The translations under genes and the position numbers were made by a program. The notes under the pieces were generated by a model. That model did no database searches, was not told where the DNA came from, and was given only the letters and a program-made list of their open reading frames with translations. Source: Mesorhizobium sp. (GTDB lineage Bacteria; Pseudomonadota; Alphaproteobacteria; Rhizobiales; Rhizobiaceae). From it: DNA of 42,251 bases. Below, piece by piece: positions 2,150-42,129 of this stretch (position 1 is its first letter; every line of letters begins with the position of its first letter). Where the stretch lies: positions 1 to 42,251 of the forward strand of contig SAQE01000056.1 of NCBI GenBank assembly GCA_004020545.1. Reading direction: 5' to 3'.

Positions 2150-2163
2150 TTGACGCAACGCAA
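2150..2163. promoter_or_regulatory. Relaxed FNR/FixK-type box (TTGACGCAACGCAA)
   Basis: TTGA-N6-GCAA lies midway between the divergent cytochrome c (start 2093) and USP (start 2222) genes, with its centre about 64-66 bp from both start codons. This fits the spacing of the other boxes here, but one half-site is imperfect. Confidence 0.5.
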
Positions 2164-2221
2164 TGCCGGCGTGCGCCGTCTCGTTACTGTTTACCAATCT
2201 CAATCAGTAGGAGCGGCTGCT

Positions 2222-3055
2222 ATGTCATTCAAGACGGTACTGACGATTACGGGACCGGGTATGGGCGATGGCGATCTGCAAATCGCCGCCCGCCTTTGCG
2301 AGGAGGTTGATGCCCACCTTGCCGTTCTCGTCGTGGTGCTCGCTGCGCCGCCACCCGTTGGTGAGTATGCCGCAATCGTCTCCGAAGACTGGCTGAAGGA
2401 GCGTCAGGCCGATGAAAAGCTTCTGAGGCAGAGAACAGAGGCCGTATCGGCTTTTCTTGCTGGCCAGGCGCTCTCCGCCGACATCGCCAGCGAATATCCC
2501 GAAGCCGGATGGGCCGACGAAACGATCGGACGCCGCGCACGCTATGCCGATATCACCGTCGCGGGGCCGGAAATGCTTGCCGGCAAGACGCTGAAAGGCA
2601 AAGTGATAGAGGGAGCGTTGTTTTCTTCCGGGAAGCCATTCCTGCTCCTCCCCGAGGGTTCGCGACCGACTTTGAAGCCGAAATGCGTCGTGGTTGCATG
2701 GGATGCCCGTATAGAGTCGTCGCGCGCAGTTCGCGAGTCGCTCGACATTCTGATTGGCGCCGACGAGGTGCATATCGTCGTGGTCGACCCGATCCGGAAC
2801 GAAGTGCACGGGGCGGAGCCCGGAGCCGATGTCGCGGCCTACCTTGCCCGACATGGAGCAAAAGTTACGGTCGACCGGCTGCCCAATGCGGACCATTCCA
2901 TCGCCGACGTGCTTCGCCAGCACGCGGTGGATATCGACGCCGACTTGATGGTGATGGGCGCCTACGGACATTCACGCCTGCGCGAGCGCATTCTTGGCGG
3001 TGTCACCAGATCGATTCTCGAACGACCGACACTGCCGGTCCTTCTGGCGCGATGA
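2222..3055 (+). CDS. Universal stress protein (UspA family), double-length
   Basis: This 277-residue protein belongs to the tandem or long UspA class. The N-terminal half begins FKTVLTITG. The C-terminal half ends GAYGHSRLRERILGGVTRSIL, which matches the G-x2-G-x9-G(S/T) nucleotide-binding signature of ATP-binding USPs. The start chosen is the ATG at 2222, preceded by TAGGAGC; longer upstream reading lacks USP similarity. USPs are cytoplasmic and help cells survive growth arrest and low oxygen. A relaxed FixK-type box is centred 65 bp upstream. It is a paralogue of the protein at 7053-7832, with a nearly identical terminal motif (GAYSHSRFREALFGGMTKSLL). Confidence 0.9.
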   Translation: MSFKTVLTITGPGMGDGDLQIAARLCEEVDAHLAVLVVVLAAPPPVGEYAAIVSEDWLKERQADEKLLRQRTEAVSAFLAGQALSADIASEYPEAGWADETIGRRARYADITVAGPEMLAGKTLKGKVIEGALFSSGKPFLLLPEGSRPTLKPKCVVVAWDARIESSRAVRESLDILIGADEVHIVVVDPIRNEVHGAEPGADVAAYLARHGAKVTVDRLPNADHSIADVLRQHAVDIDADLMVMGAYGHSRLRERILGGVTRSILERPTLPVLLAR

Positions 3056-3174
3056 CAAACCCACGAAAGCAGAACGGGCCCACGAATGCAGGAGGGGTCT
3101 GGTGCTTTCTGTCGCTTGGTCCCAATGCGCCGACGCTACCGCCCTGCCCGATCCATCGTCCTCCGACAGCCGCC

Positions 3175-3792
3175 TTAGATATTGCGCCAAATACGGCTGG
3201 ACTCGTTGGCGAAAAGCTCCAGACAGCGCATGAAACTGTTTCTCACGGCCTCCTCTGGAGGAGATGCTATCTTGTAGGTCCGCATTTCGCGGCGTGAGTC
3301 CGAACGCGCAAAACGCACTTCATATGTTCCGGCAAGCACTGCGTTTACGAACGCCGCGGCGAGCACCGGAGCCTGCGTCGCCGCCATGACAGTGCCGTCC
3401 TCATAAGCCTCGTAATTCAAATGATCGAGCGAGGTGAACGCGCGGGAGCTGAACGCGGCGTCCGAAATCTGCACTATTTGATATTTGTCGCTGGCCGTGA
3501 GATCGGCAGCCGCCATGAGGAAGCCGGCCACAACACCCCCATCGTATTTATTGTATCCGGCAAACGCGACGAACTTGACGGCTTCCCGAGACGGGGGATT
3601 GCTCGCGTCCAGGATGATCTCGCAAGCCTTGGTCTCCTCGGTCTCCTCGGTCCGGTTGCTGTAAGTGACTTCTGCCGGGAATATCGTCGCGCTGGCCGCC
3701 TGGTTGACGCCGGCTGAGGCCAGGATGGTCAGCCACGCAAGGAGGCGAAGCACGACGGATATGTGTTCAGTGTTTCCGCCGTTACTCCGCAT
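3175..3792 (-). CDS. Exported protein of unknown function
   Basis: I do not recognise this 205-residue protein. From the ATG at 3792 it starts with a charged stretch, then a hydrophobic signal segment (VVLRLLAWLTILAS) ending near NQAASA, so it is probably periplasmic. The mature part has one cysteine near each end (in CEIIL and RCLEL) and a mixed alpha/beta look, with no known catalytic motif. An in-frame GTG at 3861 would give a longer, unlikely N-terminus. It follows the Spy-like gene on the same strand after a 68-base gap, so it may share that gene's low-oxygen promoter. Confidence 0.6.
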   Translation of the reverse strand: MRSNGGNTEHISVVLRLLAWLTILASAGVNQAASATIFPAEVTYSNRTEETEETKACEIILDASNPPSREAVKFVAFAGYNKYDGGVVAGFLMAAADLTASDKYQIVQISDAAFSSRAFTSLDHLNYEAYEDGTVMAATQAPVLAAAFVNAVLAGTYEVRFARSDSRREMRTYKIASPPEEAVRNSFMRCLELFANESSRIWRNI

Positions 3793-3860
3793 CGATCCAT
3801 GCTCCCACGATAAATTCCGCATCGGCGTCCCGAGACGTCGGCAGCGGGGCGCAATGGGCA

Positions 3861-4418
3861 CTATCTGACCATCATTCCAGGACCGAATCCGCCCGAGCGT
3901 CCCATGCCCATGCCCATCATCGGCAAGACAATCTCGTCGGCTGCCTTCTTCTGCTTGTCGTTCAGTGTTGCGTACAGTTTTTCAACCGCCGCCCTGACTG
4001 CCTTTATCTGCGTCAGCCGAGCTTCCAGATGGGATTGTTGATAAGCAAGCCGCTCGGGCAAAGGCTTCTCAAAGAAGTCGCCCTCCCGGAATTCCTTGAT
4101 CATGCTCTGCATCAGCGCGTTATGCGTTTCGGCCGTACTGCGAATAACAGATGCCAGCTCATCCCACGACGGCTTCTGTTCATCCGTGATCTCCAGCTCC
4201 GTCTTGAGGTAGGCCAGGCGTCCGTCAATTCGATCGATCATCTCGCCTGGGTCGAAATCTCCCATCGGGCCGCCAATCCCCCACTGGCCCATCATCATCC
4301 GGCCCATGCCCCAGCGAGGCCACCAGCCGCCGTCACTGTCGTCAGCACGAGCCACCACAGGTAATGTGACAATGCTCAGCATCAGCCCCGCTGCGAAAAC
4401 ACTGCGCAAACTGCACAT
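3861..4418 (-). CDS. Spy/CpxP-like periplasmic protein, methionine-rich ends
   Basis: The 185-residue product has a signal peptide (cleavage near VVARA) followed by a helical LTxxQ/Spy-CpxP type domain, seen in LEITDEQKPSWDEL and LEARLTQIKAVRAAVEKLYATLNDKQKK. Family members are small periplasmic chaperones or metal-responsive proteins. Both flanks of the domain are rich in Met and Gly (GMGRMMMGQWGIGGPMG and MMGMGMGRSGGFGPGMM), which could bind copper or another soft metal; that is inference. The start at 4418 is preceded by GGAGTAAGGCCG. A box centred 73 bp upstream suggests FixK/FNR control. Confidence 0.8.
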   Translation of the reverse strand: MCSLRSVFAAGLMLSIVTLPVVARADDSDGGWWPRWGMGRMMMGQWGIGGPMGDFDPGEMIDRIDGRLAYLKTELEITDEQKPSWDELASVIRSTAETHNALMQSMIKEFREGDFFEKPLPERLAYQQSHLEARLTQIKAVRAAVEKLYATLNDKQKKAADEIVLPMMGMGMGRSGGFGPGMMVR

Positions 4419-4804
4419 CGGCCTTACTCCACTCAATGGTCTGAATTGTGCGGCCAACAACATCCCGAGATCGCAGCGGCGGCATTGACCTACGTCAAAA
4501 CGGCTGGTGGGGCGTGGACGGTGATAGCGCGTGCCAACATCGCCCATTTTCAGTATCTTCTGGCACGGGGATCAATCCGAAGCGGCGACAGATGATCGAA
4601 GGCTGGCTGGCCCCGGAGCGGAAGAAGCTCGCCTTCCTCGATTAGGAATCCAGTGCAATTGCTTGCGGTTAGTGCAAGGTGGATTATCCTTGTCATCGGA
4701 CAAACACGCTCACCTTCTCGACCTGTAGCGTGCGCGCGATTTTGGCAGAACGGTATTGAAGCGCCGACTTCGGCGGCGCGCTTCCTAACGCGAAAGGGAG
4801 ATCG
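4419..4804. other. Divergent promoter region between the spy-like gene and fixL
   Basis: These 386 bases hold one exact FixK-type box (4485-4498) placed for the leftward spy-like gene. A weak TTG-N8-CAA palindrome lies at 4690-4703. A small hairpin occupies 4761-4779 (GCGCCG, 7-base loop, CGGCGC) in the probable fixL leader. No protein-coding frame looks convincing. Confidence 0.5.
4485..4498. promoter_or_regulatory. FNR/FixK-type box (TTGACCTACGTCAA)
   Basis: This is an exact TTGA-N6-TCAA palindrome centred 73 bp from the ATG of the spy-like gene. If it is a class II activator site, transcription would start about 32 bases before that ATG. Confidence 0.75.
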
Positions 4805-6310
4805 ATGCCAGCGAGAGATGTCCCAGGGTTGCAAGATCGCCTGCTTCAGGCTGCTTTCTCACGCCGCTTTGAAGGCCTGAACGGATATCTGCTTGCGATG
4901 GCTGCAGTGGCCGTCGTCTTCGCCGTTCGACTTGCGTTGGGCAGTGTCCTCGGGACTAGCCTTGCCTTCATACTTTTCATTCCCGTCATCTTGATCGCGG
5001 CGATCCTGGGCGGCATCGGCCCTGGCCTTGCTGCGGTCCTTCTATCCTTTGCCTCGGCGACCTACTTTACCGGCATCGATCAAATCAGCTGGCTGCAAGC
5101 CGCCGTCTTCGGACTTGTCGGGCTCACGATTGCCTGGATGGGAGAGATGCTCCATCACGCGCGCCGTGCGCTTGACCGGGCCGAAGACCAGCTAAGGTCG
5201 CGAGAAGCGCATCTGCGCTCGATTCTGGACACTGTTCCCGACGCAACTGTCGTGATCGACGAGAAGGGGCTTATCACCTCTTTCAGCGCAGCAGCCGTTC
5301 GTCAGTTCGGCTACTCGGAGGCGGAGGTTCTGAACCGCAACGTCCGTCTTCTGATGCCAGAGCCGTATCACAGCCAGCATGACAGCTACATTCAGCGATA
5401 TCTGACGACTGGAGAGAAGCGCATTATTGGTGTGGACCGCGTGGTCGTCGGGCGCAGGAAGGATGGATCGACCTTTCCGATGAAGCTGTCTGTCGGCGAG
5501 GTGAGATCCACCGCTGGAAGGTTCTTCACCGGCTTCATCCAAGACCTGACCGAACGCGAGGAATCCGAAGCACGCCTGCAGGAACTCCAAAGCGAACTGG
5601 CCCGGCTCGCCCGCCTGAACGAACTTGGCGAAATGGCCTCGACCCTCGCGCACGAGCTCAACCAGCCCCTTTCGGCGATCGCGAACTATTCGCAGGGCTG
5701 CGTCCGCTTCCTGAAGGCTCTGGATGACAGGACGGCCGAGCCTTTAAGGGACGCGCTGGAGGAGATAGCAAAGCAGTCGCTTCGAGCCGGGGGCATTATT
5801 CGCCATCTACGCGAATTCGTCACTCGCGGCGAGACGGAGAAGTCGCCGGAAGATCTGCACAAACTGATCGAGGAGGCTGGCGCCTTGGCGCTCGTCGGCT
5901 CGCGCGAGCAAGGCGTGCGCTCGGTGTTCGAATTCGCTCAGGACACCGAGGAGGTTCTGGTCGACAGGGTGCAAATCCAGCAGGTTCTGATCAACTTGAT
6001 GCGCAATGCCATGGAGGCGATGCGCGAAAGCGCCAAACGCGAGCTGATTGTCCGCACGGCTCGCGACGACGGACATATGCTGATCGAAGTGGCTGACACT
6101 GGGCCGGGAATCTCGGACGAGATCGCTGCCAATCTGTTCCAGCCTTTCGTCACCAGCAAAGCCAGCGGGATGGGTATTGGGCTTTCAATCTCCAAGCGCA
6201 TCGTCGAGGCGCATGGTGGCGAGATAGAAGCCCACCGAAACGGGAACGGTGGGGCGACGTTCCGACTGTCCCTCCCCATAGCCGCAGAAGATGTCGCAGA
6301 TGCAAACTGA
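4805..6310 (+). CDS. fixL: Oxygen-sensing haem-PAS histidine kinase FixL
   Basis: This 501-residue sensor kinase matches FixL closely. Residues about 27-112 form several membrane helices. A PAS domain follows (about 135-250) with HDSYIQRY, placing the haem-ligand histidine near 192, and IIGVDRVV, with the regulatory arginine near 212. The kinase core has the H-box [15 protein letters not shown] (phosphorylated His near 283), an N-box ([12 protein letters not shown]), a G1 motif (VADTGPGI) and GMGIGLSI. In FixL, oxygen bound to the ferrous haem shuts off autophosphorylation; at low oxygen it phosphorylates FixJ. The ATG at 4805 follows AAAGGGAG. It overlaps fixJ by 11 bases, so the two are co-translated. 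It sits inside the group of genes its cascade probably controls. Confidence 0.95.
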
Positions 6311-6926
6311 CACCTATGTGGTCCACATCGTGGACGATGAGGAGCCGGTCCGCAGATCTCTTGGCTTCCTGCTGAGTGTGATGGGGTTCAATGTGCGCGT
6401 TCACGACTCAGCGACAAGCTTCCTTGCTGCCGCCCCCGGCGCCGGCAACGCCTGTCTCGTTACCGATCTGGGCATGCCGGATATGAGCGGCGTCGAACTC
6501 TTGGAGCGGCTGAACGAAATGGGGGCAATGATGCCATCGATCGTCATCACAGGTCGCGGCGACGTACCGATGGCCGTGGCGGCAATGAGAGCTGGGGCAG
6601 TCGATTTCATCGAAAAGCCATTCGAAGATGAAGTCCTGGTCGATGCCATCAAACGCGCGGCAAGCAGCTTCGACGAAGCTGCCAAGAACGGCGACGACAT
6701 TTCAGCACTTCAGTCCCGGTTCGAGCAGTTGTCGAACCGGGAACGTGACGTCCTGTCGGGCATGATCGAGGGACTGTCGAACAAAACTATCAGCTATGAT
6801 CTCAACATCAACCCGCGAACTGTCGAGATTCATCGCGCCAACGTTATGGCAAAGATGCAGGCCAGGAACCTTCCGGAACTTGTGAGAATGGCAATCGCCA
6901 TGGATTTGCTCGATGAGCGCAAGTGA
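6300..6926 (+). CDS. fixJ: Response regulator FixJ
   Basis: This protein has a receiver domain (acidic pair in HIVDDEEP, phosphoacceptor Asp near 56 in [11 protein letters not shown], and Lys in FIEKPFED) followed by a LuxR-type helix-turn-helix ([21 protein letters not shown], then [13 protein letters not shown]). This is the FixJ layout, and the usual length of about 205 residues is met. I prefer the ATG at 6300, which has AGAAG nine bases ahead and matches the FixJ N-terminus; an ATG at 6291 has no room for a ribosome site. Phosphorylated FixJ classically activates fixK and nifA. Neither gene lies in this window, so the FixK acting on the boxes must be encoded elsewhere. Confidence 0.95.
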
Positions 6927-7052: not shown

Positions 7053-7832
7053 TCAGTGGGACACCAGCACCGGCAGCGAGAATTGCTGGAGCAGGGATTT
7101 GGTCATCCCGCCGAACAGAGCTTCGCGGAACCGAGAATGACTGTAAGCCCCGGCCACGATAAGATCTGCTTCTTCCAATGCAGGAGAGGCAAACAGCGCC
7201 TCGATCGGCGACAGATCGCCAGCGTTCGACCATCTGTCGATGTCGATCTTGATCCCATGAGCAAGCAGATGCTCACGAAGCATATCGAGGTCCTCATCCT
7301 CCCTGTCGGCCGGTGGATCGAATGCGAACGCTGTCACCTTCTGCGCGCGGGCAAGGATCGGCATTGCATCGTGCACCACGCGCGTGGCCTGAGCGCTGGG
7401 CGACCAGGCGATTACGACCTCCTTGCCGATGGGCCGCGGCTTCCAGCCTTGCGGCAGTACGATCATCGGCACCCCCGCCGTCATCAGGACCTGCTCGGGC
7501 ACCCCGGAGAGAATTCTGCCAAAGGCCTCCGGGTTGGGCTGTGTTGCGATTACCAAATCCGCATAGTGCGCATAGAAGTCCTTCCATCCCGCCGCATCCC
7601 GATCCGCGATTTTGAAGCGGACTTGCACGCCCGCGCCGTTGGCGCCGGCATGGAACGTCTCTGGGAGCGATTTCGCGCGCTCGGCCCACTCGCCCTCGAA
7701 GGCGGCGGCCGCATCGACGTCGACGCCCGTCAGCCTCGCGCCATGAACTCGCGCCAGAGAAAGGGCAAGGTCCAGCCGCGCGTTGTTGTCGGTAGAACCG
7801 TCGAGAAAGACCAGAATATCCTTGTAGCTCAT
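7053..7832 (-). CDS. Universal stress protein (UspA family), double-length
   Basis: This 259-residue USP begins YKDILVFLDGS and ends with GAYSHSRFREALFGGMTKSLL, the ATP-binding type signature, close to the tail of the USP at 2222-3055. The middle contains a second USP-like strand pattern (VVIAWSPSAQATRVVHDAMPIL). The ATG at 7832 is preceded by GTGGGAGCGAGTC. It is convergent with fixJ across a 126-base gap that holds a CT tract but no clear terminator. A box centred 80 bp upstream points to low-oxygen expression. The two USPs here are probably old duplicates. Confidence 0.9.
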   Translation of the reverse strand: MSYKDILVFLDGSTDNNARLDLALSLARVHGARLTGVDVDAAAAFEGEWAERAKSLPETFHAGANGAGVQVRFKIADRDAAGWKDFYAHYADLVIATQPNPEAFGRILSGVPEQVLMTAGVPMIVLPQGWKPRPIGKEVVIAWSPSAQATRVVHDAMPILARAQKVTAFAFDPPADREDEDLDMLREHLLAHGIKIDIDRWSNAGDLSPIEALFASPALEEADLIVAGAYSHSRFREALFGGMTKSLLQQFSLPVLVSH

Positions 7833-7904: not shown

Positions 7905-7918
7905 TTGAGTTGGATCAA
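7905..7918. promoter_or_regulatory. FNR/FixK-type box (TTGAGTTGGATCAA)
   Basis: TTGA-N6-TCAA is centred 80 bp upstream of the USP start at 7832, in the 112-base gap after the hydrolase gene. The fifth base of the left half is G rather than T or C, so it is slightly weaker than the others. Confidence 0.65.
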
Positions 7919-7944: not shown

Positions 7945-8613
7945 CTACTTCAGGTAGGTACTGAACCAGCCCGCTGCTTCAGCGACCACGCTGTCGAGGG
8001 CTCCAGGTTCGGAAAACAGATGTGTCGCGCCGGGGATGACCTTCAGCGCCTTTGGACAGTTCAGCCTGGACAGCGCTGCCTCGTTCAGCAGCAGCACCTC
8101 TCGATCATGCCCGCCGACGATGAGCAGCGTGGGGGCGCGGATGGTTTCGAGCGCCTTCTTTGCCAGATCGGGCCGACCGCCACGGGAGACCACTGCTGCA
8201 ACCGCGCTCCCGAACCGTGCGGCGACGACGAGCGCTGCAGCAGCCCCGGTGCTCGCACCGAACAGACCAAGCGGCAGATGCGCCAGACGATCCTGTGCGG
8301 CCCTCCAGTCAATCGCCGCAGCCAGTCTGTCGGCCAGAAGCGGGATGTCGAAAACGTTTCGCCTGTCGGCCTCTTCCTCGTCCCGGAGCAGATCGAAGAG
8401 GAGCGTCGCGAACCCTGCCCTGTTCAGCCCCTCGGCGACATAGGCGTTTCGCGGACTGGAAAGGTTCGACCCGCTGCCGTGTGCAAAGACGACAAGACCG
8501 CGGCACTCTTGCGGAACACGCAGGAAGCCTGGAAGCCCAAGCGGTGGAATAGCTACGCCGGTGGCGAAACCGTCATTGTCCGATGTCTGCGCTTGCATGC
8601 CGCCACTGAACAT
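7945..8613 (-). CDS. Alpha/beta hydrolase (dienelactone hydrolase-like)
   Basis: From the ATG at 8613 this is 222 residues. It shows the oxyanion region AHGSGS (about 44-49), a nucleophile elbow GASTGA (Ser near 121), an acid Asp near 170 in VGGHD and a His near 198 in GATHLF, a full serine-hydrolase triad. Related domains occur fused behind a phosphoribosyltransferase; here the hydrolase stands alone. The reading frame continues upstream, but an exact FixK-type box covers 8633-8646, so the start must be inside. ATG 8613 has AAGGGG ahead of it; ATG 8598 is the alternative. The substrate is unknown. It lies 112 bases from the next USP gene on the same strand. Confidence 0.83.
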   Translation of the reverse strand: MFSGGMQAQTSDNDGFATGVAIPPLGLPGFLRVPQECRGLVVFAHGSGSNLSSPRNAYVAEGLNRAGFATLLFDLLRDEEEADRRNVFDIPLLADRLAAAIDWRAAQDRLAHLPLGLFGASTGAAAALVVAARFGSAVAAVVSRGGRPDLAKKALETIRAPTLLIVGGHDREVLLLNEAALSRLNCPKALKVIPGATHLFSEPGALDSVVAEAAGWFSTYLK

Positions 8614-8632: not shown

Positions 8633-8646
8633 TTGACCGCTATCAA
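8633..8646. promoter_or_regulatory. FNR/FixK-type box (TTGACCGCTATCAA)
   Basis: An exact TTGA-N6-TCAA palindrome is centred only 27 bp from the hydrolase ATG at 8613, or 42 bp from the ATG at 8598. That is closer than the other boxes, so it either sets a very short or absent leader or works differently. Confidence 0.6.
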
Positions 8647-8921: not shown

Positions 8922-8935
8922 TTGATCTTGATCAA
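8922..8935. promoter_or_regulatory. Perfect FNR/FixK box (TTGATCTTGATCAA)
   Basis: This is a full match to TTGAT-N4-ATCAA. No recognised start codon lies at the usual distance: the polX remnant starts 137 bp to the right (CBS-BON gene behind it) and the hydrolase about 310 bp to the left. It may serve the rightward polX-remnant/CBS-BON transcript or an unrecognised small gene. Confidence 0.75.
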
Positions 8936-9034: not shown

Positions 9035-9065
9035 TGCGCTAACGGTGACGCTGGTCGATAGTTAC

Positions 9066-9290
9066 ATGATGATGAGACCCGCCGCCCACATCAACCGAAT
9101 GATCGAACTGTTGGAGGTCGAGGGCGCCAACCCAATCCGGATCCGTGCCTGCAGGCAGACGGCCGCGACTGTGGAAGACCTGCCGGAAAACGTGACCGTC
9201 ATGGTGGCGGGAGATTGCCCCCTCTCCGGCCTGCCCGGAACTGGTGAGGATCTTGCTGGCAAGAGTTCGAGAAGCCGTTTCATCCGCTGA
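9066..9290 (+). pseudogene. Remnant of DNA polymerase X (N-terminal HhH domain only)
   Basis: The 74-residue frame reads like the first 70 residues of bacterial/archaeal-type PolX. INRMIELLEVEGANPIRIRA matches the helical start of the family (usually an LEIKGENPFRVRAYR-like motif), and LSGLPGTGEDLAGK matches its helix-hairpin-helix (LPGIGKDLAEK). Similarity stops right after GK, and a stop codon follows eight residues later. Intact PolX proteins are about 570 residues, with polymerase and PHP exonuclease domains, all absent here. The CBS-BON gene begins 15 bases later, so a deletion joined the two. Any residual peptide is unlikely to repair DNA. Confidence 0.7.
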
Positions 9291-9305
9291 GTGGGAAAGA
9301 TATCG

Positions 9306-10007
9306 ATGCTGGCGCGCGACATCATGACCACGGGAGCCTTGACAGTCACCCCGCACGCCCCGATCGCCGATGCCGCTCGCCTCATGCTCGACCACCATAT
9401 CAGCGGGTTGCCAGTTGCCGACCAGGGCGGCGCTTTGGTCGGTATCGTTACGGAACGAGACCTGCTGTGCCGGCCCGAGATCGGCACCGCGCCAAGGCAC
9501 GAGAAGTGGATCCAGCTATGGCTCACAACGGACGAGCTGGCGGCCGAATATGTGCAGAGCCGTGGCCGCACCGTCGGCGAGGTGATGACCCGTCAGGTCG
9601 TCACCATCACACCGGACACGCCGCTCGACAAGATCGTCTCCCTGATGATCCGAGACGGCATGAAGCGGCTGCCCGTCGTTCAGGACGGGAAGGTGATCGG
9701 AATTGTCAGCCGAGCCGACCTGCTGCGCGGTCTGGCTGCACGCCTCGACAGCTTGCCGGAAGCCAAGACCGAGGACCTCGCCGTGCGCGGGCACATCCTG
9801 AGGGAGATCAGAGGCAAGAGATGGGTATCACGACCGATCGTCAATGTTGCGGTCTGTGACGGTATCGTCGAATTGACCGGCAGCGTGGCGAGCGAAATTG
9901 TCCGCGACGCTATCCGCGTGGCTGCGGAGAACGCACCGGGCGCCAAACAGGTGATCGATCACCTTAGTGTAGTTCCTCGAGCCTCTGGCTCGAAGGGACA
10001 GACATAG
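9306..10007 (+). CDS. CBS-pair protein with C-terminal BON domain
   Basis: This 233-residue cytoplasmic protein has two CBS motifs (about 1-58, DIMTTGALTVTPHAPIADAA, and about 90-145, EVMTRQVVTITPDTPLDKI). A BON domain follows (about 155-225, VNVAVCDGIVELTGSVASE). CBS pairs bind adenine nucleotides and sense energy state; BON domains often contact membranes or phospholipid. The ATG at 9306 is preceded by GTGGGAAAGATATCG; an in-frame GTG at 9291 is less likely. It has a close paralogue at 31315-32001, with the same unusual insert (TERDLL ... W..LWL..D.LA..Y). Hypoxia-response CBS proteins are typical of dormancy regulons. The nearest boxes are at 8922 and 9021. Confidence 0.88.
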   Translation: MLARDIMTTGALTVTPHAPIADAARLMLDHHISGLPVADQGGALVGIVTERDLLCRPEIGTAPRHEKWIQLWLTTDELAAEYVQSRGRTVGEVMTRQVVTITPDTPLDKIVSLMIRDGMKRLPVVQDGKVIGIVSRADLLRGLAARLDSLPEAKTEDLAVRGHILREIRGKRWVSRPIVNVAVCDGIVELTGSVASEIVRDAIRVAAENAPGAKQVIDHLSVVPRASGSKGQT

Positions 10008-11173: not shown

Positions 11174-11539
11174 AGCGTCGACGCGGGAGCTTCGGAGATC
11201 ATGCCTGGTCCTTGCTTAGCCGCCATGTCGACTGGCGGGAGCCCGGCGCCTTGAAGCCGACGGCGCCCGTGCTGTCGGGTCACTCGGACATGTATTCTTC
11301 CGGATTTTTGTTGCTCGGCTGTCCGGACGCGCGGCAACCCAGCAAGGTGCATAGCCAACTATCGGACGCACCTTCTTGCCGTGATCTCGGAGGCCGGCAC
11401 AAGTGATCGCAGGGGCCGATCCAGCGAGTCGAATTTCCCTTTTGACGTGAATCAATATGGCGTTGGGCGCGTGTGTTAACGTGTGCCTTGGCACCAGTCA
11501 TCCTTGATCGCACCGTTACTTGGATCGAGCATCGCACTC
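11174..11539. other. Intergenic region upstream of glucokinase
   Basis: Apart from the box at 11442-11455 I see nothing coding or structural in these 366 bases. Short frames on either strand lack ribosome sites and similarity. Confidence 0.4.
11442..11455. promoter_or_regulatory. FNR/FixK-type box (TTGACGTGAATCAA)
   Basis: An exact TTGA-N6-TCAA palindrome is centred 91 bp upstream of the glucokinase ATG at 11540. It is well placed for a class II site with a leader of about 50 bases. Confidence 0.75.
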
Positions 11540-16979: not shown

Positions 16980-18759
<1,780 letters not shown>

Positions 18760-27558: not shown

Positions 27559-27562
27559 CGTC

Positions 27563-29508: not shown

Positions 29509-29594
29509 CGATCGCCCTCCAATCCAGTCCCGATCAGCATTGCCAGTGATCAAGCCCATTTTTTGCAGCTTCCCGACAAATTGCCGATCCGGCA

Positions 29595-34455: not shown

Positions 34456-34469
34456 TTGATCCCCGTCAA
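34456..34469. promoter_or_regulatory. FNR/FixK-type box (TTGATCCCCGTCAA)
   Basis: This exact TTGA-N6-TCAA is centred 59 bp upstream of the ppsA start. Confidence 0.75.
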
Positions 34470-34524: not shown

Positions 34525-34538
34525 TTGACACACGTCAA
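34525..34538. promoter_or_regulatory. FNR/FixK-type box (TTGACACACGTCAA)
   Basis: An exact palindrome (TTGAC-N4-GTCAA) is centred 84 bp before the rightward membrane protein start at 34616 and 128 bp before ppsA, so it probably serves the former. Confidence 0.68.
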
Positions 34539-35535: not shown

Positions 35536-36660
35536 TCACATCATGGCGGCGCTGATCTTGCGGAAACGCATGATGGAGAGGGCGAAAAATACGCCGCCGA
35601 CGATCCCGACGACAGCAAACTGCGGCCAGACCACGTCAATGCCGGCGCCTCGATAAAGGATGGCCTGCGCGAAGCTTACGAAATGGGTCGAGGGTGACAG
35701 CTGCATCACCGCTCGCAAGAACGTCGGCATGCTGTCGAGCGGCGTGTTGCCACCGGACAGGATGTTCATTGGCAGAGCGACAAGGACGAACAGGAGCCCA
35801 AGCTGCGGCATCGAGCGAGCCACCGTGCCCAGAAAGATACCGATGGCAGTCGCGAAGAACAAATAGATCGTGACGCCCGCCATGAAGAGCGGAATGGAAC
35901 CGACGATCCGAATTCCGAGCAGCGTCTCTACCACCAACCAGAGTGACAGGCCGACCGCGACGGTGATCACCAGGCCGTTCGCCCACACCTTGGCAGCCGC
36001 GATCTCAAAAGGCGTGAGCGGCATGATCAGCAGATGATCCATCGTGCCGTGCTCCCGTTCGCGGATGATTGCCGCACCCGCAAGTATGATGGCAAGCATG
36101 TTGACGTTGCCGATGATGGCCATGACCGCATTGAAGAGTTGCGTGGTGAGATTGGGATTGAAGGCGACGCGGACAGCGAGTTTCGCTGGTTCGGCCTGTG
36201 AAGGCTCGGCATCCGTAGCAGAGCGAGCGATTTCGCGAGCGATGATCTGCTGCAGATAGCCGGCGCCGATGCCGGCTTGCATCATGGCGGTGGCGTCGAC
36301 ATTGACCTGGATAGCCGGTCGGCGGCCCGCCATGATGTCGCGCTCATAATGTGGTGGAATATCGAGGACGAACGTGCTGCGGGCCGTGTCCATCTGTTCG
36401 TCAACGTGACCGGCGACGACCTCGGTCGGGGGGCTGAAATAGGGCGGCAGCAAAGCCGCGGCGATCGCACGCGAGAGCGCCGAATGGTCCTCATCGACGA
36501 TGGCGACGGAAGAGTTATGGGCCTCCTGCGCCGGGCTCTCGGCCTGCGCATAGACCGCCAGCGTGAAGGAGTAGATGACGAAGCCGAAGAGCACGAAATC
36601 GCGCGAGAAGCTGCGCAGCTCCTTGGTGCCGAGCCAGAAGATGTTCGCTAGGTGCTGCAT
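35536..36660 (-). CDS. ABC-2 type exporter permease (YhhJ-like)
   Basis: The 374-residue permease starts with a cytoplasmic segment and helix (FVLFGFVIYSFTLAVYAQAE). A long periplasmic domain follows (about 45-170), then five C-terminal helices with EREHGTMDHLLIMPLTPFEIAAAKVWANGLV, the ABC-2 hallmark. It sits four bases downstream of the rbbA-like gene, forming the last gene of HlyD-RbbA-YhhJ, the same order as yhiI-rbbA-yhhJ in E. coli. The substrate is unknown. Confidence 0.9.
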   Translation of the reverse strand: MQHLANIFWLGTKELRSFSRDFVLFGFVIYSFTLAVYAQAESPAQEAHNSSVAIVDEDHSALSRAIAAALLPPYFSPPTEVVAGHVDEQMDTARSTFVLDIPPHYERDIMAGRRPAIQVNVDATAMMQAGIGAGYLQQIIAREIARSATDAEPSQAEPAKLAVRVAFNPNLTTQLFNAVMAIIGNVNMLAIILAGAAIIREREHGTMDHLLIMPLTPFEIAAAKVWANGLVITVAVGLSLWLVVETLLGIRIVGSIPLFMAGVTIYLFFATAIGIFLGTVARSMPQLGLLFVLVALPMNILSGGNTPLDSMPTFLRAVMQLSPSTHFVSFAQAILYRGAGIDVVWPQFAVVGIVGGVFFALSIMRFRKISAAMM

Positions 36661-36664
36661 GACA

Positions 36665-39397
36665 TCATAGCTCCTGGCGGCGGAGGAATGCCAGGCTGAT
36701 CAAGATGAGGATGGGGATGAAGGCTGCCAGCGCCAACAGGCTTCCGGCAAGTTCCTGGAAGCCGAGCGCCTTGGTGAAGGTGCCGACCGAGATGCGCAGG
36801 AAATACATCGCCGGGAAGGTATGGGCCATGAAGGCCGGAAAACCCACCAGTGAAGAGACGGGCGCCAACATGCCGGAAAACTGCACGGCGGGCAGCGAGG
36901 TCATGATCCCCGCAACGAAGAGCGCGGCAATCTGGGTTCGCGTGAATGCCGAGATCACCAAGCCGTAGCCGGTCATCGCCGTCACGTAAAGCAGCGCGCC
37001 GAGAAGGAGCACCCAGAAGCTGCCTTTCAGCGTCACGCCAAACAGGAAAACGGCCATTACGAAGAGGGTAAGAAAGCTGATCAGGCAAAGGATGACGTAG
37101 GGCAGCTGCTTGCCAAGGAGAAATTCGAGCCGCGTCACGGGAGTTACGTAGAGATTGACGATCGAACCCAGTTCCTTCTCCCTGACCACGCCAACGGCCA
37201 TCAACATGGCAGGCATGAATGCGAGCAGCATAGCGATCGTCCCGGGCACCATGGCGAAGATGCTCTTGAAGTCCTGATTGTAGACGAATCGAGTCTCAAT
37301 GACCGGCGACGCTGGCCGATTGCCGGCCGTGGCCGCGAGATCGGCGACATATTGCTGATGCAGGCCGGTGAGATAGCCGCGGACGGTTTCGGCACGGAAA
37401 GGCATGGCGCCGTCAACCCAGGCACCAATCTCGGGCGCCGTCCCGCGCCGGATGTCGCGGCCAAAGCCCGGCGGTACCTCGATGGCCAATGCGAAGCCGG
37501 CGCTGCGCAGCGCCCGATCGAGATCGTCGTAGCTGGTCAGTGTTTTCCGTTCCGCAAAATAGGGCGATCCGCGGAACTCCTGCAGATAGGCACGGCTTTC
37601 CGGCGTGTTGTCGCGGTCAAGGGCGGCGAAAGTCACCAGATTGACATCGGTATTGATGCCGAGCCCGAAGACGACCATAAGAAACGCAGTGCCGAGCAGG
37701 GCGAAACCGAGCCGCACCGGATCGCGCCAAAGCTCCAGCGTCTCGCGCCACGAATAGGCGAAAAGCCTTCCCAAGCTGAAGCCGGCCCGTGATGCCACGC
37801 GCGCGGAGGGGGAGATCGCGGCGCGCTCGGGCTCTGGTGGGCTGCTGACAAGGTTGGAGCTTTCGCCGCCTGCTGACTGGAGATAAGCAACGAAGGCATC
37901 CTCCAGATCGGCTGCACCCTTGGCTTCGACCAACTCGGTCGGCGTGCCGGCGGCCACCACCCTGCCGCCGTGCATGAGCGCGACGCGATCGCAACGCGCC
38001 GCCTCGTTCATGAAATGGGTCGAGACGAAGATGGTGACGCCTTGCCGCCGCGAAAGCTCGACGAGGAGCTCCCAGAAGCTGTCGCGAGCAAGCGGATCAA
38101 CTCCCGAAGTGGGCTCGTCGAGGATAAGGAGCTCCGGCTCGTGCACCACGGCAACGGCGAGCGAGAGCCTTTGACGGATGCCGAGGGGCAGCTGCGATGC
38201 CCGCTGGTCCACATAGGGGCCGAAGCCGAACCGCTTGATAAGCGCGGCGATGCGCGATTTCGCCCTGTCGGCGGCGATATGGAAGAGACGGGCATGCAGG
38301 TCGAGGTTCTGCCTGACGGTCAGCTCGGTATAGAGTGAGAAAGACTGAGACATATAGCCGACACGCCTGCGCAGGCGCATGTTGGCGGCGTCGATCGGCT
38401 GCCCCAACAGCCAGGCCTTGCCGTCAGAGGCCGGCAGCAGCCCGGTCAGCATCTTCATCGTGGTGGTCTTGCCGCAGCCGTTCGAGCCGAGGAAGCCGAA
38501 GATCTCGCCGCGTTCGATGGCGAAGCTCACGCCATCAACCGCTACGAATTCGCCGAAGCGCCGAGTGAGGCCATCAGCGATGATGACTGCCTCGTGTTCG
38601 CCAGATGGCCGCGGCGGAATGGAGAGCGCACGACGCCCGGCACGAACCGCCTCGGGCAAAAGCGCAATGAAGCTTTCCTCCAGGCTCCCCTGCCCTGTCA
38701 GCCGTTTCAGCTCGGCCGGCGCCGCCGAAGCGAGGATCCGCCCGGCATTCATCGCGATGAGCTCGTCGAAGCGCTCTGCCTCCTCCATATAGGCGGTGGC
38801 CACGACCACGCTCATGCCGGGCCGCCTCGCTCGCATACGTTCGATCAGCTCCCAGAATTGCCGGCGCGACAGCGGGTCAACGCCCGTGGTCGGCTCGTCG
38901 AGAATGAGTAGGTCGGGGTCGTGAACGAGCGCGCAGCAAAGGCCGAGCTTTTGCCGCATGCCGCCCGAGAGTTTCCGCGCCGGGCGGTCGGGAAAGGGTG
39001 CCAGGCCGGTCGCCTCGAGCAGCGTGTCAATGCGCCGGGCGCGCTCGCCGGCCGGCTCGCCGAAGAGGCGTCCGAAGAAATCTATATTCTCTCGGACGCT
39101 AAGATCGGGATAAAGGTTCTTGCCGAGCCCCTGCGGCAGAAAGGCGATGCGCGGGCACACGGCAGAACGATGGCGTTGGTCGGCCATATCGCTGCCGAAG
39201 ACCTCCACGCGGCCCGTCTGAATGCGTTTGGCCCCGGCGACCAGGCTGAGCAGGGTCGACTTGCCAACGCCGTCCGGGCCGATCAATCCGACGAGCGCAC
39301 CTGTCGGGACCCTGAGCGTCACGCCGTCGAGCGCGAGCGTGCGGCCGTAGGAGTGAGAGAGCCCCTCGACGGCGATGACGCTAGCGGGATGGCTCAT
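36665..39397 (-). CDS. rbbA: RbbA-like fused double ATPase and ABC-2 permease
   Basis: The 910 residues match the length of E. coli RbbA (911) and its layout. ATPase 1 has Walker A GPDGVGKST near 40-48, LSGGMRQK and LLILDEPTTGVDP. ATPase 2 has GSNGCGKTT near 304-312 and the degenerate signature LPLGIRQR, then LLILDEPTSGVDP. An ABC-2 permease of about 360 residues follows. RbbA is known for ribosome-stimulated ATPase activity in E. coli, but with HlyD and YhhJ partners an export role is equally plausible. ATG 39397 overlaps the HlyD stop by 17 bases. Confidence 0.9.
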   Translation of the reverse strand: MSHPASVIAVEGLSHSYGRTLALDGVTLRVPTGALVGLIGPDGVGKSTLLSLVAGAKRIQTGRVEVFGSDMADQRHRSAVCPRIAFLPQGLGKNLYPDLSVRENIDFFGRLFGEPAGERARRIDTLLEATGLAPFPDRPARKLSGGMRQKLGLCCALVHDPDLLILDEPTTGVDPLSRRQFWELIERMRARRPGMSVVVATAYMEEAERFDELIAMNAGRILASAAPAELKRLTGQGSLEESFIALLPEAVRAGRRALSIPPRPSGEHEAVIIADGLTRRFGEFVAVDGVSFAIERGEIFGFLGSNGCGKTTTMKMLTGLLPASDGKAWLLGQPIDAANMRLRRRVGYMSQSFSLYTELTVRQNLDLHARLFHIAADRAKSRIAALIKRFGFGPYVDQRASQLPLGIRQRLSLAVAVVHEPELLILDEPTSGVDPLARDSFWELLVELSRRQGVTIFVSTHFMNEAARCDRVALMHGGRVVAAGTPTELVEAKGAADLEDAFVAYLQSAGGESSNLVSSPPEPERAAISPSARVASRAGFSLGRLFAYSWRETLELWRDPVRLGFALLGTAFLMVVFGLGINTDVNLVTFAALDRDNTPESRAYLQEFRGSPYFAERKTLTSYDDLDRALRSAGFALAIEVPPGFGRDIRRGTAPEIGAWVDGAMPFRAETVRGYLTGLHQQYVADLAATAGNRPASPVIETRFVYNQDFKSIFAMVPGTIAMLLAFMPAMLMAVGVVREKELGSIVNLYVTPVTRLEFLLGKQLPYVILCLISFLTLFVMAVFLFGVTLKGSFWVLLLGALLYVTAMTGYGLVISAFTRTQIAALFVAGIMTSLPAVQFSGMLAPVSSLVGFPAFMAHTFPAMYFLRISVGTFTKALGFQELAGSLLALAAFIPILILISLAFLRRQEL

Positions 39398-40505
39398 CCG
39401 TCCGCCCCAATGCGAGAGAGGTCGGCCACTCGGCACCGCCGTTGAGGTGTACATAGGCGAGCCCGGGAAGCCCCGAGCCCATCTCCGCCGCATGAATGCG
39501 CAGATAGTCGGGGTCAACGCGCACGCGAATCCGAAACATCAGCTTGTCGCGCTCCGCCTTGGTCTCCACTGCTTTTGGCGTGAACTGCGCCTCCCCGGAG
39601 ACAAAGACAACCTTAGCTGGGATTGGCGATTCAGGTTCGGCGTCAAGTACGATGCGCGCGTCGCTGCCTACGGTCGTGCGACCGGCCTCCGCCGTGGGCA
39701 GGAAAATGTCCATGTAGACATAGCCGGTGTCGATAATGGTCAAGACCTTCCCGCCGGCGCCGATTACCTCGCCGATATTGGCGAGGCGATATTGAACGCG
39801 GCCGTCGCGAGGAGCGACGAGCGAATTGTCGGCGATGTTGATCCGATAGAGGTCAACATCGTGATTGGCGGCCGTCAGCGTTTGTTCGGCTTGCCCGACG
39901 CGCGCATTGGCTGCAGCGAGCGCGGCATCGGCAGCGCTCATCTGCTGCTGACGCTGGTCGAGAATCTCGGCGGTCGCGTATCCTTTGTCCACGAGGACAA
40001 TCGCGCGGGTAAGCTGCTGCTCGGCGAGCTTGGCCTGGGCTTTCTGCTGCTCGACGCCAGCTCGCGCCTCGTCGAGCATCCGATTGGCCCCAAGCACCTG
40101 TGCCTCCGCTTTGCGAAGCGACATCTCGAGGTCCTGCGTGTCCATCCGCGCGACCACCTGGCCGGCGCGAACGACATCACCCTCATCAACGAGAAGCGCG
40201 GCGATGCGACCGCTGAACTTGGCCGCGATGTCGATCTCGTCTGCCTCGACCCTGCCATTGCCGAAGGCAATCCCGGCGGGCAGTCCGGGAAGGGCATGCA
40301 GCCACCAATATCCGCCTGTCGCAGCGCCGGCGACCGCAACCAGCGCCAAGGCGAGCCAAAGCCGGCGGCGCCGTTTCACGGCGGCGGCAGGAATAATCTC
40401 CGGGAGGTTGAGCTCAGGCTGGCTCGGCATGAGCATTCGGCTCCCCGAACGGTCGTTCGAGGGGAGCAACTCGGTGCCGTCATTGATGACCTTGGTGTTG
40501 GGCAT
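39381..40505 (-). CDS. HlyD-family adaptor (YhiI-like)
   Basis: The 374-residue adaptor has a cytoplasmic start, a membrane anchor (LWLALALVAVAGAATGGYWWL), a lipoyl-like domain (AAKFSGRIAALLVDEGDVVRAGQVVARMD), a coiled-coil hairpin (about 125-205, rich in Ala, Gln, Glu) and NSLVAPRDGRVQYRLANIGEV. It is the first gene of the three-gene exporter. The ATG at 40505 follows TTAGGAATCGACGA. Two FixK-type boxes lie 88 and 113 bp upstream (centres 24 bp apart), the clearest tandem pair in the window. Confidence 0.9.
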   Translation of the reverse strand: MPNTKVINDGTELLPSNDRSGSRMLMPSQPELNLPEIIPAAAVKRRRRLWLALALVAVAGAATGGYWWLHALPGLPAGIAFGNGRVEADEIDIAAKFSGRIAALLVDEGDVVRAGQVVARMDTQDLEMSLRKAEAQVLGANRMLDEARAGVEQQKAQAKLAEQQLTRAIVLVDKGYATAEILDQRQQQMSAADAALAAANARVGQAEQTLTAANHDVDLYRINIADNSLVAPRDGRVQYRLANIGEVIGAGGKVLTIIDTGYVYMDIFLPTAEAGRTTVGSDARIVLDAEPESPIPAKVVFVSGEAQFTPKAVETKAERDKLMFRIRVRVDPDYLRIHAAEMGSGLPGLAYVHLNGGAEWPTSLALGRTDEPSR

Positions 40506-40586: not shown

Positions 40587-40600
40587 TTGATCTGCGTCAA
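40587..40600. promoter_or_regulatory. FNR/FixK-type box (TTGATCTGCGTCAA)
   Basis: This exact TTGA-N6-TCAA is centred 88 bp upstream of the HlyD-like start at 40505 and is the proximal half of a tandem pair. Confidence 0.75.
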
Positions 40601-40610: not shown

Positions 40611-40624
40611 TTGATCCGCATCAA
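40611..40624. promoter_or_regulatory. Perfect FNR/FixK box (TTGATCCGCATCAA)
   Basis: A full TTGAT-N4-ATCAA match is centred 113 bp upstream of the HlyD-like start and 24 bp from the neighbouring box. Confidence 0.78.
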
Positions 40625-40740: not shown

Positions 40741-40754
40741 TTGATGTTGATCAA
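40741..40754. promoter_or_regulatory. Perfect FNR/FixK box (TTGATGTTGATCAA)
   Basis: A full TTGAT-N4-ATCAA match is centred 240 bp upstream of the hsp20 ATG and about 240 bp from the exporter start. It is most likely for hsp20 with a long leader, though the distance is unusual here. Confidence 0.72.
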
Positions 40755-40987: not shown

Positions 40988-41527
40988 ATGGCTGAGGCCG
41001 CTACCAAACTGCCCGTGAAGTCCGAGAAGAATGCCCTCGCTCCTGCCCGGTCGGACAACTGGATGGGACCGTTCGAGAGCCTGCGTCGTGAAATCGACCG
41101 GCTTTTCGATGACTTCCATCCGTTCGATTTTCGCCTGCCCTCCACCCGTTCGCTGTTCGGCCGGGATTTGCCGGCGGTGAACAGCGCATGGTCGGTGGCG
41201 CCGGCAATGGACCTGGTGGAAAAGGCCAATGCGTATGAGATCACGGCCGAACTGCCGGGCATCGATGAGAAGAACATCGAGATCAAGCTCGCCAACAACG
41301 TGCTGACGATCAAGGGCGAGAAGAATGAAGAGAAGGAGGAAAAGGAGAAGGACTACTACCTCTCGGAACGCCGCTACGGCTCCTTCCAGCGATCCTTCCA
41401 GTTGCCTGAGGGGGTCGACGCCGACAAGATCGACGCCAGCTTCGCCAAGGGCGTGCTGACGGTCAAGCTGCCCAAGACGGCAGAAGCCCGGAAGGCCGAG
41501 AAGAAGATCACCGTGAAGGCCGCATAA
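40988..41527 (+). CDS. Small heat-shock protein, Hsp20/alpha-crystallin
   Basis: This 179-residue chaperone has an N-terminal arm (about 1-67: GPFESLRREIDRLFDDFHPF) and an alpha-crystallin domain (about 68-172). The domain includes YEITAELPGIDEKNIEIKLANNVLTIKGEK, the YGSFQRSFQLPEGVDADKIDA segment and GVLTVKLPK. It binds unfolding proteins in oligomers without ATP. GGAGAGAACC precedes the ATG at 40988. Upstream lie a perfect FixK box (40741) and no heat-shock (CIRCE or ROSE) element that I can see. Low-oxygen Hsp20s are a standard part of dormancy regulons. Confidence 0.92.
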   Translation: MAEAATKLPVKSEKNALAPARSDNWMGPFESLRREIDRLFDDFHPFDFRLPSTRSLFGRDLPAVNSAWSVAPAMDLVEKANAYEITAELPGIDEKNIEIKLANNVLTIKGEKNEEKEEKEKDYYLSERRYGSFQRSFQLPEGVDADKIDASFAKGVLTVKLPKTAEARKAEKKITVKAA

Positions 41528-41542
41528 CGGCTCGAACGATCA

Positions 41543-41575
41543 CTTTCTCAGCGCGCCGGACGCGCACTGAGAAAG
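41543..41575. terminator. Stem-loop after hsp20
   Basis: CTTTCTCAG at 41543-41551 pairs perfectly with CTGAGAAAG at 41567-41575 around a GC-rich loop, 16 bases past the hsp20 stop. No T-run follows on the + strand, so termination may be imperfect. Confidence 0.5.
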
Positions 41576-41606
41576 AACCCCTCCGCCTGCCGGCCTCATT
41601 CGCTTA

Positions 41607-41710
41607 ATGCATGTCGCCCAAAGTGCGCAGCGGTTTTGGGAGAACGATATGCATCAAACAAAGACTTAAAAGCGCATCGCCTGAATTCGTTTCAGCGCGA
41701 CGCGCTTTAG
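41607..41710. repeat. Two-hairpin rhizobial palindromic repeat
   Basis: The first hairpin has arms ATGCATGTCG (from 41607) and a matching ...CGATATGCAT (to 41654). The second has arms AAAGCGC (41669-41675) and GCGCTTT (41702-41708), with an inner CTGAA/TTCAG stem. The pair strongly resembles an intergenic palindromic element I recall as common in Rhizobiales genomes. It ends on the stop codon of the next gene and may act as a two-way terminator between convergent genes. Confidence 0.7.
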
Positions 41711-41898
41711 ACCGATCGATCCTCGGCCCTGGAAGGAGCCCGCTTCTGGTTGGTCTCTGCCTGGCGCTCCGCGATCTTGAGCTTCTCCTTTTCGCGCGCA
41801 AGCAGGCCTCGGATCATCATCCGCTTTTCCGGGTCGGTTTCCCGGGCAAGCAGATCTTCGAAATGGGCGATGTTGGCCTGAGCAATGAACCGGTCCAC
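41707..41898 (-). CDS. Small helical protein, rhizobial type
   Basis: From GTG 41898 (GAGGA five bases before it) the product is 63 residues, mostly charged helix: RFIAQANIAHFEDLLARETDPEKRMMIRGLLAREKEKL. That pattern, an IAHFE(D/K)LLA.ETD..KR helix then a second LLA.E helix, resembles small proteins I have seen in rhizobia, probably a helical hairpin. Function is unknown. A TTG at 41910 is an alternative start. Its stop lies inside the palindromic repeat. Confidence 0.65.
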   Translation of the reverse strand: MDRFIAQANIAHFEDLLARETDPEKRMMIRGLLAREKEKLKIAERQAETNQKRAPSRAEDRSV

Positions 41899-42115
41899 GA
41901 CAGTCCTCAATTGCCGACAAGACGCATTGCCATCGAGCTTATATCCAATAGCTTCGATATCCTACCCTGACTTGTTCACATTCGCTGCAACCGCCTTCCA
42001 AACTGCTGCGACCGGTTGAGTTCGGGCGCCGGCGAGGCCCGAAGCATCTCCTTGACGATCCGCCAGTGGCCCAACATGAGCCGGATGGTCAAGGGCGCGC
42101 GCGAATTGATCAAAC

Positions 42116-42129
42116 GCAATGCGCGCAGG
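42116..42129. promoter_or_regulatory. Relaxed FNR/FixK-type box (TTGATCAAACGCAA)
   Basis: TTGA-N6-GCAA is centred 48 bp before the ATG at 42171. Spacing is a little short and one half imperfect. Confidence 0.4.

Follow-up and report, generated by a model that had tools for sequence, protein, structure and literature searches.

A dense cluster of FixK/FnrN-type boxes in a Mesorhizobium genome: a probable accessory low-oxygen survival island

Described FixK regulons and the Mesorhizobium window

In Bradyrhizobium diazoefficiens, published tables list bll4634 (adaptor), groEL5, hspC2, bll4644 (universal stress protein, USP), and bll4645 (host attachment), and likewise blr4652-4654 and blr4655 (ppsA), as units with FixK2 boxes, and in microoxia the loss of FixK2 lowers expression of these genes 10- to 111-fold; for hspC2 and ppsA, in vitro validation is cited (PMC9104804). 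A separate list gives blr4646 (CBS), blr4658 (glk), and blr4659 (PfkB-type) as microoxia-induced (PMC6515984). In Rhizobium leguminosarum, an Hsp20 with an anaerobox is reported as FnrN-dependent (PMC11784457), the anaerobox and the FixK/FnrN cascade are described for strain 3841 (PMC7888657), and FixK/FNR regulons have been compared (PMC4999443, PMC2908626), with USPs included in the second comparison. Here we analyze a 42,251-nucleotide stretch of Mesorhizobium sp. (contig SAQE01000056.1, hereafter the window; C140:1-42251 of a draft genome of 6,993,374 bp in 188 contigs), in which TTGA-N6-TCAA palindromes, the boxes, lie densely among genes of the same kinds.

We conclude that this rhizobium probably has an accessory island for survival at low oxygen, activated by FixK/FnrN, and that the window holds the greater part of it. 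That such a cluster is new as such is ruled out by Table 2 of PMC9104804, since B. diazoefficiens is already known to have these core genes, together with several FixK2 boxes and with expression that depends on FixK2 (PMC9104804, PMC6515984). As tabulated, the bll4634-blr4659 genes have neighboring locus numbers and correspond to those of the window for an adaptor, Hsp20, USP, host-attachment protein, CBS protein, phosphoenolpyruvate (PEP) synthase, glucokinase, and PfkB-type kinase; tabulated FixK2 boxes accompany five of the eight genes, namely those for the adaptor, Hsp20, the USP, the host-attachment protein, and PEP synthase (ppsA; PMC9104804), and the CBS, glucokinase, and PfkB-type genes appear in the microoxia-induced list (PMC6515984). 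The window likewise unites PEP synthase, glucokinase, PfkB, USP, Hsp20, and host-attachment genes with boxes in one block. It differs from the published tables in holding acs-pdh genes, a factor that fuses an S30AE domain to a cold-shock domain, an RbbA-like exporter, and fixLJ within the block, and in its 16 exact boxes; neither GroEL nor DnaJ was identified among the window genes. Activation of the homologous genes by FixK2 is experimental in B. diazoefficiens (PMC9104804) and may extend to the present organism.

R. leguminosarum shares the anaerobox TTGAT-N4-ATCAA with the window, but published work describes hFixL-FxkR signaling for strain 3841 rather than FixLJ (PMC7888657). Plasmid pRL22b4 of R. 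leguminosarum 22B has genes for PEP synthase, glucokinase, Hsp20, USPs, RbbA, and HlyD, and 15 strict boxes (TTGAY-N4-RTCAA) occur there in 42 kb; it differs in that GroEL and FtsH lie near PEP synthase. The Sinorhizobium fredii plasmid pSF45436d, typed as conjugative, unites acs-pdh, an alpha/beta hydrolase, Hsp20, BON, USPs, PEP synthase, glucokinase, a PfkB-type kinase, and an ABC importer, and has 18 strict boxes in two stretches of 74 kb in total, which lie 35 kb apart. Unlike in the window, acs and PEP synthase are ~70 kb apart on this plasmid, and the two stretches have no fixL or fixJ annotation; a PAS protein, a helix-turn-helix protein, and a response regulator are encoded side by side there. 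This trio (L208:3009-6525) lies close to PEP synthase and may sense oxygen locally. The mycobacterial DosR dormancy regulon also combines a hypoxia two-component sensor, USPs, and a small heat shock protein and is partly clustered. To our knowledge, it is not homologous to the window in either regulator or binding site, making the likeness one of analogy and not of membership.

Density, placement, and conservation of the boxes

The properties that we computed directly are box density, box placement, conservation of aligned boxes, the presence of boxes before orthologous genes, and pooled spacing to the -10 element. An initial annotation of the window had counted 16 exact palindromes, and both this number and the range of positions given for them are correct. 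Shuffling dinucleotides 100 times yielded a mean of 0.34 exact sites and a maximum of 3, close to the ~0.2 that had been put forward as the chance expectation. With the relaxed pattern TTG[AC]-N6-[TG]CAA, the window has 22 sites (Markov mean 2.7, maximum 8 in 60 simulations), of which six rather than the proposed four are relaxed only.

Across the whole genome there are 142 exact sites, compared with 33 for the backward-read pattern that served as a control, and 81 strict sites. The window represents 0.6% of the genome and yet holds 15 of those 81. An equal box density throughout the genome, which would have spoken against the initial annotation, was not seen: extrapolation from the remaining genome gives 0.40 strict and 0.77 exact sites for the window, against the 15 strict (37-fold) and 16 exact (~21-fold) sites counted. 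The shuffles and the genome-wide density rule out a chance origin of the window boxes, and a uniformly high density is ruled out by the 5.5 strict sites per Mb found outside five dense stretches (Table 1). These five, whose bounds were picked after the sites were seen, amount to 115.6 kb (1.65% of the genome) and contain 43 of the 81 strict sites. Therefore, the proposal of one physical cluster is upheld as to clustering and density but not as to the window standing alone, given that four further dense stretches exist, all of them near contig ends.

Placement agrees with promoter function. When a simple gene finder was used, 39 of the 43 strict boxes in the five clusters fell outside predicted genes, as expected from the mostly intergenic location first described. 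Distances to start codons were taken from our own gene calls, which were made with a simple codon-usage script trained on the window. By these calls, 11 of the 16 exact boxes are centered 50 to 95 bp before a start, so that most conform to the spacing originally proposed, whereas five (8922, 19020, 24159, 40611, and 40741) do not. Note that box 8633 belongs to the conforming class only if a weak 72-aa open reading frame (ORF) is real.

We searched for the 16 exact boxes in stretches of seven relatives and could align nine in genome G118, six in G115, and two in G010. Where boxes aligned in these three relatives, identity was 131/136 in half-sites, 89/102 in spacers, and 1277/1642 in flanks. 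This conservation bears on the view that the density is a by-product of duplication, with promoter-gene units (USP, Hsp20, and CBS-BON) copied locally and many boxes persisting as relics. We consider this very improbable: there are paralogues (Hsp20 on C140 and C100, several USPs, and two CBS-BON genes), and two of the nine boxes aligned in G118 are not kept, but most boxed window genes are unrelated to one another (glucokinase, PEP synthase, acs, S30AE, and HlyD) and the aligned half-sites are more conserved than their flanks.

Orthologues (at least 45% identity over 60% of the length, scored only with at least 200 bp of upstream sequence) were sought in stretches of six relatives, which are not independent, and in 80 named loci. 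A strict box precedes 18 of 81 acs orthologues but none of the orthologues of the next four genes of the operon (0/75, 0/64, 0/63, and 0/52). Strict boxes were also found before the orthologues of S30AE (5/5), glucokinase (4/4), the HlyD gene at 39381 (2/2), and FixL (3/3, although the box of the window FixL itself is 314 bp away), and before none of the orthologues of the 9045 ORF (0/1).

Promoter spacing was examined in a pool of 155 strict boxes from the five clusters, G118, G115, G010, G095, and nine named loci (L206, L208, L209, L212, L213, L214, L050, L054, and L088; G028, G039, and other loci were excluded). A predicted start lay on a single side of 83 boxes, and 75 of these remained after near-duplicates were removed. 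On the gene side, TANNNT occurs at offsets 28 to 29 from the box center in 12 of the 75, compared with 0.28 per offset elsewhere and with four on the opposite side. In class II FNR activation, the box is centered at -41.5, and the pooled spacing to the -10 element is what such activation would give. Promoter palindromes exceed chance, as in a FixK/FnrN regulon, and the FixK/FNR reading offered at the outset is supported by density, by the conservation of alignable half-sites, by the boxes of orthologous operons, and by pooled promoter geometry. The clustering is real and, on these data, very probably functional.

Regulators, relatives, and plasmid-borne counterparts

Pfam assignments, from which the identities of window genes are taken, agree with the names first given (Table 1). 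FixL and FixJ are indeed encoded within the window, as judged by domain content and by the match of the FixL PAS domain to solved FixL PAS structures (1d06, E 4e-55). FixL, adjacent to FixJ, carries QHDSY and RIIG motifs, which are linked to haem. Of the two HlyD-headed exporters of the initial annotation, one is a MacB-type system and the other resembles RbbA, judging from how its plasmid homologues are annotated. Neither the PfkB gene nor the host-attachment gene has its own box. The S30AE-cold-shock fusion is followed by a baeRF-family protein (24295-25358), and both may act on the ribosome.

No Crp/FNR gene was found in the window. Elsewhere in the genome, contig C117 encodes three Crp-family proteins, of which two are regulators of the cognate type with an FNR-type recognition helix: an FnrN-like protein (C117:13.5 kb, inside the box cluster of that contig) with a Cys-rich N terminus and an ETVSR helix, and a FixK-like protein (C117:26.7 kb, ~7 kb beyond the cluster), also with an ETVSR helix. 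A motif scan for FNR-type helices caught only four of the 11 Crp loci; the FixK-like protein was not among them and was identified by eye. A third ETVSR helix is located at C33:57 kb, and the Crp-family gene of C149 is without it. We take the genes of the C117 stretch to include fixNOQP, fixGHIS, hemN, nirK, a phosphoketolase gene, and a second FixLJ-like pair. That pair (L133:584-2786) is near fixGHIS/fixNOQP, and therefore two oxygen-sensing pairs may act in parallel.

The contents of C117 also raise the question of whether a different Crp/FNR protein, of the NnrR/DNR type, is the main reader of the boxes, such that the island answers nitric oxide or denitrification and not oxygen itself. 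An NnrR-like protein is encoded on C117 near NirK- and NnrS-like genes, as these are presumably to be named, and a USP belongs to a predicted DNR regulon in the comparative data of PMC2908626. We regard this possibility as improbable, because the window gene set matches B. diazoefficiens genes tabulated as FixK2-dependent or microoxia-induced and because no denitrification gene is present among the identified window genes.

The stretch on C33 (L130:1-15000) is locally denser than the window (2 to 14.3 kb contains 11 exact boxes) and encodes GroEL, a P-type ATPase, PhaC, two USPs, a baeRF protein, and a phasin-like protein just below the Pfam cut-off. That on C149 encodes FtsH, a triple-BON protein, ribose-phosphate pyrophosphokinase, a USP, and a metallo-beta-lactamase/beta-CASP protein. 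Because a NifH-family gene (E 3e-130) and nodA (E 7e-99) are present, the genome looks like that of a nodulating diazotroph by gene content.

With PEP synthase as a marker (E <= 1e-150), nine of 146 genomes of the genus are carriers, the present one included. Among 40 relatives, identity is 70 to 82% in G010, G039, and G028 and 51% in G035. Shared genes keep the window order, reversed, in G118 (450-486 kb) and G115 (217-248 kb), where the genes of C149 at 25.5-30.2 kb directly precede those of the window at 39-40 kb. Because its 3' genes abut genes of another cluster in these two close relatives, the window is probably cut and part of a larger cluster, and its 3' end would join the 3' end of C149 in its own genome, perhaps through a repeated block of Hsp20, DUF2267, and phosphoribosyltransferase genes (the last two names are our assumption). 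This block is not present at the G118 junction, and no common 18-mer was found among the nine 300-bp contig ends compared. The 3' end of the window (42106-42251) and C100 (L131:104-1272) seem to have the beginning of a DUF2267-like gene in common, after very similar Hsp20s, a repeat that may have broken the assembly. Some window genes, such as those of the ABC importer and the MacB exporter, are absent from both G118 and G115, each of which has further genes instead or in addition; in G115, acs-pdh is likewise absent from that region. Many of the same modules stand together in G010 (42-78 kb) and G095 (466-496 kb), with order and orientation shuffled.

Whole-genome strict-box totals (backward controls 2 to 8) are 62, 59, 90, and 55 in the congeneric carriers G118, G095, G010, and G115 (81 in the present genome) and 20, 35, 28, 53, 13, and 17 in the noncarriers G003, G005, G009, G011, G021, and G016. 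Box number rises with carriage inside the genus, with overlap near 53 to 55, but not outside it: PEP-synthase carriers of other families, G028 and G039, have 28 and 17 strict boxes, with only six and five exact boxes in 140 kb.

PEP-synthase matches (E <= 1e-100) are present on 130 plasmid records, 56 at 60 to 80% identity and 74 lower. In seven regions of ~42 kb chosen among the 20 matches listed, strict boxes number 12 (S. fredii), 15 (R. leguminosarum), nine (Agrobacterium tumefaciens), seven (Burkholderia savannae), two each (Phenylobacterium zucineum and Rhizobium binae), and zero (Methylocystis rosea), where 0.05 to 0.2 are expected; two acs regions of ~32 kb have six (S. fredii) and zero (M. 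rosea). MOB-suite gave three plasmid classes: conjugative for S. fredii, P. zucineum, and B. savannae, mobilizable for M. rosea, and nonmobilizable for R. leguminosarum, A. tumefaciens, and R. binae. On the P. zucineum plasmid, fixJ is annotated near PEP synthase and phosphoketolase.

It is conceivable, though in our judgment rather unlikely, that clustering reflects only ancestral carriage on a plasmid, with no gain from togetherness and with shared boxes as a mark of that history. Related gene sets do reside on plasmids, some typed as conjugative, and a truncated integrase-type Arm DNA-binding domain (PF13356; C149:17.8 kb, L135:17833-18286) lies in the first of two short frames immediately before the C149 box cluster. 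However, the modules stay together in G010 and G095 despite shuffled order and orientation, which suggests repeated reassembly; a plasmid history, still conceivable with this, concerns the origin of the island and not its regulation. No tRNA was found at an island edge in the window or in the seven stretches scanned. The two flank genes of G118, with which an empty site was sought, have no match at E <= 1e-90 in the present genome or in 12 noncarriers, indicating that the flanks are accessory too; the left one is also present in G115.

As an island marker, acs was rejected, since it is found under many phylum titles and is mostly boxless. The best named match found for it is from Chelativorans xinjiangense (86%). 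Records of acs relatives (L050-L129), often with pdh and acyl carrier protein genes, are titled Nitrospira, Acidobacteria, Planctomycetes, and Beta- or Alphaproteobacteria, many being metagenome-assembled genomes, and wide transfer of these relatives seems likely.

Several observations weigh against FixK/FnrN activation of the island as a whole. The acs and Hsp20 boxes are 287 and 240 bp from the called starts; seven of the 16 exact boxes align in none of the relatives' stretches; and of the boxes that do align, 40741 is degraded in G118 and 40611 is disrupted there as well as in G115. Strict boxes are missing before 63 of the 81 acs orthologues, and the contrast with later acs-operon genes is weaker than it appears because those genes overlap and leave little or no promoter space. 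Boxes precede only some orthologues of PEP synthase (4/8), Hsp20 (1/2), the USP at 29010 (1/3), and the hydrolase (2/9). Only two of the 10 window boxes listed (11442 and 19020) show TANNNT at offsets 28 to 29. Finally, the Methylocystis plasmid has PEP synthase but no strict box in 42 kb, and the group box totals overlap, a noncarrier congener reaching 53 when carriers of other families have 28 and 17.

Table 1. Positions of genes and boxes in the window and of the dense stretches of the genome
Feature	Position	Strand	Remarks
USP gene	2222-3055	+	
LTXXQ-family gene	3861-4418	-	
FixL	4805..6310	+	DUF4118-like membrane part (below Pfam cut-off), PAS, HisKA, HATPase
FixJ	6291..6926	+	receiver, LuxR-type helix-turn-helix
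USP	7053..7832	-	two Usp stretches
Alpha/beta (dienelactone-type) hydrolase	7945..8613	-	
HHH_8-like ORF, then CBS-BON protein	9045..10007	+	ORF short, below Pfam cut-off
PGA_cap protein	10079..11173	+	
Glucokinase	11540..12532	+	
PfkB-family sugar kinase	12545..13507	-	next after acs-pdh genes
acs, pdh E1alpha, E1beta, E2, acyl carrier protein	13521..18739	-	
ABC importer	19655..22226	-	NMT1-type binding protein, ATPase, permease
121-aa unknown protein	22804-23169	-	
Ribosome hibernation-type factor	24295..24849	+	S30AE fused to cold-shock domain
Host-attachment/baeRF family 12 protein	24882..25358	+	
MacB-type ABC exporter, HlyD adaptor	25644..28864	-	
USP	29010..29540	-	Usp match C140:29118-29438
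CBS-BON protein	31315..32001	-	downstream of PEP synthase
PEP synthase-like protein	31998..34403	-	PPDK_N, mobile, PEP-binding domains
280-aa protein	34604-35446	+	divergent from PEP synthase
HlyD adaptor, double-ABC ATPase/permease, ABC-2 permease	35536..40505	-	ATPase/permease RbbA-like
Hsp20 small heat shock protein	40988..41527	+	
Relaxed box TTGA-N6-GCAA	2150..2163		before USP gene 2222-3055
Exact box	4485..4498		73 bp before LTXXQ-family gene, 314 bp before FixL
Exact box, not strict	7905..7918		79 bp before USP; identical in G115 and G118
Exact box	8633..8646		26 bp before hydrolase, 59 bp before weak + ORF; unaligned in relatives
Exact box	8922..8935		116 bp before 9045 ORF; unaligned in relatives
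Exact box	11442..11455		91 bp before glucokinase; half-sites kept in G118 and G010; TAACGT at offset 28
Exact box	19020..19033		287 bp before called acs start; identical in G118; TATCTT at offset 29
Exact box	23236..23249		73 bp before 121-aa protein; unaligned in relatives
Exact box	24159..24172		129 bp before hibernation factor; unaligned in relatives
Exact box	24222..24235		66 bp before hibernation factor; identical in G115 and G118
Exact box	28922..28935		64 bp before HlyD; unaligned in relatives
Exact box	29595..29608		61 bp before USP; half-sites kept in G115 and G118
Exact box	34456..34469		60 bp before PEP synthase; half-sites kept in G118, G115, and G010
Exact box	34525..34538		72 bp before 280-aa protein; unaligned in relatives
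Exact box	40587..40600		88 bp before HlyD; identical in G115 and G118
Exact box	40611..40624		112 bp before HlyD; not kept in G115/G118 (6/8 half-site bases)
Exact box	40741..40754		240 bp before Hsp20; degraded in G118
Relaxed-only sites	2150, 9021, 22727, 29540, 31832, 42106		
Dense stretch	window		
Dense stretch	C33:1-15 kb		
Dense stretch	C149:18-32 kb		
Dense stretch	C100:1-24 kb		
Dense stretch	C117:1-20 kb		

Proposed control and significance

Oxygen control, the FixJ-to-FixK wiring, the identity of the box reader, and the physiological effect are what we infer from these sequences. As oxygen falls, haem-bound FixL of the window, and perhaps the second FixLJ-like pair of C117, would phosphorylate FixJ, and phosphorylated FixJ would raise the amount of FixK. 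FixK, joined at lower oxygen by the iron-sulfur protein FnrN, would then bind the TTGA-N6-TCAA boxes ~41 bp before transcription starts and activate ~14 separate transcription units in the class II manner. The Hsp20, USPs, and hibernation factor would protect proteins and ribosomes, glucokinase, PfkB, PEP synthase, and acs-pdh would rewire carbon flow, and island products would also drive the exporters.

We tentatively propose, at somewhat less than even confidence, a portable and modular hypoxia-survival regulon, in which interchangeable operons, most of them equipped with an FNR-type box and some with a FixLJ sensor as well, travel between chromosomes and plasmids, remain together despite shuffling, and use the FixK/FnrN of the host, even in a betaproteobacterium (the B. 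savannae plasmid with seven strict boxes around PEP synthase). No description of the gene set as a mobile or shuffled island, or of its patchy and partly plasmid-borne nature, was found in the literature searched, most subscription journals being outside it. What sets the island apart is its extra operons, its internal FixLJ, and this patchy, partly plasmid-borne distribution. A list of microoxia-induced proteins thereby possibly becomes a transferable unit whose gain and loss can be tracked by a marker, carried by nine of 146 congeners, and with a nifH-family gene and nodA in the same genome, any effect of the island on symbiosis could be tested.

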